From a virus, in the IMG/VR virus record IMGVR_UViG_3300045971_000356, positions 1 through 64,000 of that record: a stretch of DNA of 64,000 nucleotides. One strand, given 5' to 3'. The notes below the pieces were generated by a model. The model was not told the origin of the DNA. It saw only the letters and a program-made list of their open reading frames with translations, and made no database searches. Numbering within the stretch: the first letter of the stretch is position 1; every line of letters starts with the position of its first letter. Of the stretch, positions 14,843-14,962 are shown piece by piece. Both the position numbers and the translations under genes were made by a program.

Positions 14843-14962
14843 GCGAGTATGGTGGAATCGGTAGACACACCAGACTTCTACGGAACATCTGCTTAACGCG
14901 GGTGTTCAAAAAAATCTGACGGGGGCAACTCCATCCCGGTTCGACTCCGGGTACTCGCACCA
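14843..14962 (+). tRNA. tRNA-Leu(TAA) with nested anticodon arm
   Basis: 120 bases. Acceptor GCGAGTA/TACTCGC, normal leucine D-arm, long variable arm and T-arm CCCGG-TTCGACT-CCGGG, ACCA end. The ordinary anticodon stem CCAGA/TCTG does not close a 7-base loop but about 40 bases. Within these GAACATCTG/CGGGTGTTC form a nine-pair stem with loop CTTAACG carrying anticodon TAA. It is either an intron-like insertion or an extended anticodon arm. Confidence 0.7.

Follow-up and report, generated by a model that had tools for sequence, protein, structure and literature searches.

How can a phage tRNA gene with 40 nt in place of the 7 nt of an anticodon loop give rise to a functional tRNA? The question is raised by a tRNA-Leu(UAA) gene in a stretch of 64,000 nucleotides (hereafter the window) that opens a virus record (G000) of 166,302 bp, from a large phage with T4-like genes (RIIA, a DnaB-type helicase and tail fibres). 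To our knowledge, bacteria are generally held to possess self-splicing tRNA introns only. Our analysis speaks for a tRNA-splicing process, so far little known, in phage-infected bacteria, with RNA-repair enzymes of the phages themselves probably sealing the cut tRNAs.

An intron-like insert in the anticodon loop

The gene (Table 1) is matched by the Rfam tRNA model over 14843-14959 (42.4 bits), and its 5' exon shares 94% identity over 35 nt with tRNA-Leu(UAA) of cyanophages. A first-pass annotation had described a leucine tRNA with about 40 bases where a 7-base loop is expected, and the gene is indeed real, the 40 nt being 7 plus 33 inserted bases (CTACGGAACATCTGCTTAACGCGGGTGTTCAAA). ARAGORN makes no call in plain mode and, in intron mode, mislabels the gene as 'Pyl(cta)' with a 31-nt intron; with the insert removed, the call becomes tRNA-Leu(taa). 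An amber suppressor can be dismissed, since the CUA lies inside the insert and the body is that of a leucine tRNA. The insertion point is placed between U34 and A35 because the uninterrupted genes of two phage relatives (L002 and L003) read CAGACTT-AAAATCTG; the sequence is CAGA-CTTAAAA-TCTG in the genes without insert of a Pelagibacter phage and a Synechococcus phage. In the window, a run of seven A's after the hairpin leaves the 3' boundary to be set only by the rule that a 7-nt loop should remain; this boundary is unambiguous in relatives whose insert ends in AAC or GAT.

The insert is predicted to fold as 5 nt, a hairpin of 10 bp and 3 nt (z of -5.9 for the insert alone), the whole 120-mer folds at -48.1 kcal/mol (z of -4.2), and the anticodon stem and the intron stem would be separated by an internal loop of 8 nt x 7 nt. 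Of the nine-pair hairpin with a 7-base TAA loop reported in the first-pass annotation, the hairpin stands, while the predicted form has 10 bp and a 5-nt loop, from which the nine-pair version differs only by the opening of the last pair. The apparent nesting of one anticodon arm within the loop of another is a chance feature of a single sequence, as relatives keep the hairpin and not the UAA loop (their loops are UCAA, UAAC, or of 6 or 8 nt). This variation also bears on the idea that the insert is retained, in a tRNA that is functional or a decoy and whose elongated anticodon arm resists or occupies host anticodon nucleases. Changes in the anticodon loops of phage tRNAs have been predicted to evade nucleases (PMC10264068) and the inner loop of the window happens to show UAA, but the inner loops of relatives vary freely in sequence and size, A35-A38 of the exon remain canonical, inserts elsewhere resemble tRNAs and span 46-82 nt, and insert-bearing genes are the sole ones found for their anticodons. 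We therefore disfavour the elongated arm and consider it very unlikely.

The tRNA-Ala(UGC) gene that follows is, from its spacing, probably co-transcribed with the tRNA-Leu gene, and the surrounding region holds HNH and GIY-YIG homing-endonuclease-like genes. Odd tRNAs are found elsewhere in the window (1174-1266, 1510-1585, 4428-4499, 6163-6235 and 7177-7253), including a 93-nt 'Gly(acc)', a 'Leu(tag)' without long variable arm and two detected by Rfam only. A permuted two-piece tmRNA at 52666-53065 (Rfam beta_tmRNA 119.6 bits, tmRNA_permuted 119.4 bits) is of betaproteobacterial type and hints at the host group. Two neighbouring ORFs rich in CxxCH-like motifs (11806-13137), multihaem cytochrome-like by eye, come after a TPR/outer-membrane-like ORF (10179-11816) and are possible electron-transfer genes on a phage.

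Table 1. Features of the tRNA-Leu(UAA) locus in the window, RNA-repair genes of the same record and insert-bearing tRNAs of phage Atu_ph07
Feature	Position	Strand	Content	Basis or remark
tRNA-Leu(UAA) gene	14843-14962	+	long variable arm, CCA encoded	
5' exon	14843-14877	+	acceptor 5' strand, D arm, anticodon 5' stem, C32 U33 U34	Rfam tRNA match; cyanophage identity
Intron-like insert	14878-14910	+	33 nt at U34/A35	missing in L002/L003; same family in relatives
5' flank of insert	14878-14882	+	CUACG, unpaired	fold
Hairpin of insert	14883-14907	+	10 bp, 14883-14892 with 14898-14907, loop 14893-14897	folds, covariation
3' flank of insert	14908-14910	+	AAA, unpaired	fold; 3-nt flank in most single-hairpin inserts
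3' exon	14911-14962	+	A35 A36 A37 A38, anticodon 3' stem, long variable arm, T arm, acceptor 3' strand, CCA	Rfam; ARAGORN on spliced form
tRNA-Ala(UGC)	14969-15044	+	6 nt 3' of tRNA-Leu	ARAGORN
Rnl1 gene, G000	148875-150691 of record			outside window; interrupted
Pnkp gene, G000	145830-147368 of record			outside window; interrupted
Atu_ph07 tRNA-Asn(GUU)			46-nt insert	acceptor-like stem unlike that of G008; T arm and AAAAG/UAA junction kept
Atu_ph07 tRNA-Lys(UUU)			48-nt insert	
Atu_ph07 tRNA-Thr(UGU)			33-nt insert	weaker call: one anticodon-stem mismatch, poor fold

Relatives of the insert and covariation

Insert-bearing relatives, for which the first-pass annotation had proposed a search, are numerous. 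Pattern scans of IMG/VR, followed by a structure filter that for Leu(UAA) inserts demanded A35 and A or G at 36 on the 3' side of the insert, yielded 24 more phage tRNA-Leu(UAA) genes; in all 25, the window's included, the insert (26-80 nt) lies at U34/A35. A general finder, which apart from the stems required no more than U33 and a purine at position 37, revealed inserts in additional isoacceptors and returned no insert genes from 4.8 Mb of reversed sequence. In the closest family (L062, L125, L127/L132, L133, L157, L178 and L191) the hairpin is kept with different loops and partly different stems, the anatomy of 5 nt, 10 bp and 3 nt being maintained despite the differences in sequence, and the unpaired flanks are conserved. 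An alignment of 11 sequences pairs in 89.7% of cells, with changes on both sides in 11 of 15 pairs and, in the insert helix, in 8 of 10; the covariation score was equalled by none of 500 shuffles and was lost on sliding the partners. The covariance model built from these sequences recovered seven insert-bearing tRNAs outside the seed at E 6e-9 to 6e-5, exon bases giving part of the score, and had no match outside tRNAs better than E 0.01 in 1.44 Mb. Only model R1 picked up, at E 4e-4, what is probably a tRNA-Tyr carrying a class I insert (CTG, insert, TAAA), in L132 (6858-6914).

These data largely refute a pseudogene, or the chance landing of a mobile hairpin in a tRNA. Homing-endonuclease-like genes of both types do lie nearby, but the inserts occupy an identical position in unrelated tRNAs and are in register in two isoacceptors, the exons are intact with paired stems, the insert helix covaries, and the model is confined to tRNAs at the threshold above; we give this origin almost no weight.

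Searches of sequenced organisms for the window's class were negative: the exact class motif had only two matches in bacterial genomes, neither within a tRNA, and the window tRNA matched sequenced phages in its exons only. Likewise, no insert-bearing relative was found among sequenced phages for the tRNAs of G013, L196, G017 (Val), G001 (CAU), G008 (Lys), L190, L172 and L091. The first broad pattern scan returned mostly other tRNA-like elements. Elements resembling tRNA-Leu, of the form AGTCAGGTGGCGGAATGGTAGACGC...CAGGTTCGAATCCTGTCCTGACTAC, in which the acceptor, D and T arms are present and an anticodon arm is not evident, are common in viral contigs (L010, L013, L028, L049, L052 and many more).

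Inserts in other phage tRNAs

Inserts were also found in phage tRNAs for Met/Ile2(CAU), Lys, Asn, Thr, Val, Leu(UAG) and Asp. The window's own insert family occurs in a second tRNA of G001, between C34 and A35, where the arrangement CTC-insert-ATAA would leave CUCAUAA, the loop of Met/Ile2; G004 holds a second CAU case, and in G008 the inserts of Lys(UUU) and Asn(GUU) are located between 35 and 36. When 37 inserts were folded, 35 beat their shuffles by more than 1 sd. Single-hairpin inserts mostly have 10-13 bp and a 3' flank of 3 nt, whereas the L196 insert consists of an acceptor stem, a T arm and ACCA, and that of G013 also ends in ACCA, at the splice site. There is no sequence conservation between subclasses, and the last intron base can be A, C, U or G (A in the window). 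Insert removal led to a normal ARAGORN call in 28 of 28 cases, a restoration that is partly by construction because a 7-nt loop was the criterion by which the boundaries were placed; the telling point is therefore that the resulting anticodon matches the body of the tRNA. Except for CAU, no second gene for the anticodon of an insert-bearing tRNA was found in the nine records that were scanned whole. Longer inserts of 74-97 nt, starting with a hairpin whose loop is AAUAAA or AGUAAA, were seen in tRNAs of L172, L174, L091 and L009 and may belong to the class described in Lak megaphages (see below).

Could the RNA itself catalyse its removal, as a minimal element that splices or cleaves itself, whether or not ligation follows? 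Its site is that of the cyanobacterial tRNA-Leu group I intron, and conserved flanks in the window's family would be compatible with catalysis. However, 33 nt falls far short of the size of all known group I introns, Rfam gave no match to an intron or ribozyme, and neither a common last base nor any shared sequence unites the subclasses, so that we regard an RNA-catalysed process as distinctly improbable. Group I and other Rfam families were ruled out for the insert itself by the lack of a match, and the group I catalytic core was matched neither at the gathering threshold nor at E<=5 around the gene.

A cultured phage with insert-bearing tRNAs

Using the Asn tRNA of G008 as query, we found a match with 85% identity over 90% of the query in an unannotated stretch of the cultured Agrobacterium phage Atu_ph07, which holds three insert-bearing tRNAs (Table 1) and encodes Rnl1. 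Its authors listed tRNAs for every amino acid but Asn and Thr (PMC6102473); both are present when inserts are allowed for. A relative, Sinorhizobium phage AP-J-162, was described as lacking tRNA-Tyr and possessing 'Pyl(CUA)' and 'Phe(AAA)' tRNAs (PMC11242549), names under which tRNA finders also list insert-bearing genes in the present analysis. Because standard finders miss these genes or mislabel them (as Pyl, Phe(AAA), Arg or Stop), published phage tRNA lists may be incomplete, and Atu_ph07 serves as a worked example.

RNA-repair genes in insert-bearing phages

In phage T4, Pnkp and Rnl1 repair breaks in anticodon loops. RNA ligases of this type have an established role against host-nuclease damage, and they occur in phages without such inserts. 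The record that contains the window encodes both enzymes (Table 1) and also an Rnl2-like ligase, in two pieces. Among insert-bearing records of at least 100 kb, Rnl1 is found in 5 of 7, against 4 of 27 large controls (p=0.007), an enrichment that is suggestive only because the controls were unmatched for lineage or tRNA number. Any ATP-dependent RNA ligase is found in 6 of 7 such records and 9 of 27 controls (p=0.019), with no clear difference for Pnkp (2 of 7 against 4 of 27). The controls were large records from the pattern scans that failed as Leu(UAA) insert genes, and the set is imperfectly clean since L009 and L091 carry insert tRNAs of the longer class (neither with Rnl1); nine ligase-bearing controls (or their like) gave no match to a pattern for 22-52 nt. 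Across eight insert-bearing genomes, the most widely shared families were Rnl1 and an HNH nuclease (6/8), and no shared endonuclease family was recognised. In G004, 17 nt separate the end of the tRNA-Leu with its insert from the start codon of Rnl1 downstream, and Rnl1 is followed by Pnkp. No Rnl1 match was obtained in G001 (112 kb) or G015, nor any ligase in G001, and both records may be fragments. RtcB could be ruled out as sealer, being absent in 27 of 27 records.

Several RNA-repair genes are interrupted, in G000 (the two loci of Table 1 and 112654-114211), in G008 (62683-64208) and in G004 L322. Rnl1 is split at a similar place in G000, G008 and G004, by ~440-830 nt, and the interruptions lie near GIY-YIG-like ORFs in G004 and G000 and have no Rfam group I match. 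G000 also carries a phosphatase-family ORF resembling a macro domain (110142-110627) and a metallophosphoesterase (135835-136704), both common to several other insert-bearing phages and possible end-processing enzymes.

A proposed splicing pathway and its implications

The intron-like insert, one of two options in the first-pass annotation, is well supported by its recurrence at the same position in unrelated phages, the canonical loop that its removal restores, the covarying helix and the linkage with RNA-repair genes. From the sequences, we infer that it is a short intron, removed from a functional tRNA-Leu(UAA), with a probability of roughly 0.85. In the folded precursor, the intron hairpin of 10 bp would lie opposite the anticodon stem across the internal loop, within which a nuclease would cut 3' of U34 and 5' of A35. 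The 33-nt intron would be released while the tRNA fold holds the two halves together, a phage RNA ligase of the T4 Rnl1 type would join U34 to A35, and the polynucleotide kinase/phosphatase Pnkp would heal the ends where required. Since no common endonuclease family was recognised in these phages, the cutter is perhaps a host enzyme. Given that the insert is removed, cutting and ligation are strongly favoured over a ribozyme; given cutting and ligation, Rnl1 is a likely sealer, although the interruption of the Rnl1 and Pnkp genes of G000 itself counts against its involvement. Overall, we consider removal by cutting and ligation reasonably probable, and the whole statement, sealing by Rnl1 included, to have about an even chance.

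In a variant of this pathway, the insert would mimic an acceptor/T arm, with RNase P cutting on the 5' side and 3'-end processing on the 3' side to leave ligatable ends. The ACCA at the splice site of the L196 and G013 inserts would fit such an origin of the ends, as would the Asn and Lys inserts of G008 and Atu_ph07, which keep the T arm while their stems differ, and a Thr intron of Lak megaphages looks tRNA-like and may itself encode a tRNA (PMC6784885). The window's class has neither T arm nor CCA, and its 5' cut would fall 5 nt before the start of the helix, a position at which RNase P does not cut a stem. We think the variant unlikely in general; RNase P and 3'-end enzymes are suggested as cutters for the subclass of tRNA-like inserts, but not for the window's hairpin class.

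More broadly, large phages might widely run protein-based tRNA splicing in bacteria, distinct from group I and from archaeal/eukaryal splicing, with short hairpin or tRNA-like introns in the anticodon loop, a host or phage nuclease, and Rnl1 with Pnkp; we offer this generalization tentatively, the odds being somewhat against it. If it is true, the introns may restrict the maturation of phage tRNAs to settings where the ligase is present. With a defined anatomy, many phages including a cultured one and named enzymes, the question of how these tRNAs mature is directly testable.

Comparison with known systems

A 2014 review placed all phage introns then known in protein genes (PMC3984707). Lak megaphages were later found to have tRNAs with enigmatic introns, of which the authors knew no earlier report (Devoto et al. 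2019; PMC6784885). As far as we found, this is the only precedent for phage tRNA introns in the open literature, subscription papers and bioRxiv being mostly outside the search. Both cases concern intron-like inserts in phage tRNA genes, here absent from uninterrupted copies, and both are unclassified by Rfam, as judged for Lak from the word 'enigmatic' and the Rfam test in the methods (PMC6784885). The Lak phages differ in having Prevotella hosts and another genetic code, and their main text gives neither a mechanism nor a link to ligases (PMC6784885); the comparison is one of descriptions. The kind is thus already known, from one clade and without mechanism, and what is new, as far as found, is the class with a 10-bp hairpin at 34/35, its spread and covariation, the link with Rnl1 and Pnkp, and a cultured example.

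The group I intron of cyanobacterial and plastid tRNA-Leu(UAA) sits in the same gene at the same U34/A35 site. It is hundreds of nucleotides long, has a ribozyme core and ends in G, whereas the window's insert has 33 nt and one hairpin and ends in AAA. Archaeal and eukaryal tRNA introns share with the inserts their short structured form, their location in the anticodon loop and, presumably, removal by cutting and ligation. Their usual site, cut by the Sen endonuclease, is however 37/38 and not 34/35; a bulge-helix-bulge (two 3-nt bulges and a 4-bp helix) was not found at the window's boundaries, where the larger internal loop is predicted instead, and the ligases here are Rnl1/Rnl2-like, with no RtcB in the 27 records.

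The likeness to T4 lies in the enzymes, both encoded in G000, and in breaks within anticodon loops. In T4, Pnkp and Rnl1 repair a host tRNA-Lys cut by a host nuclease, which differs from the maturation of a phage tRNA. If the generalization above is true, the T4 'repair' enzymes would also be, or derive from, a machine for tRNA splicing.
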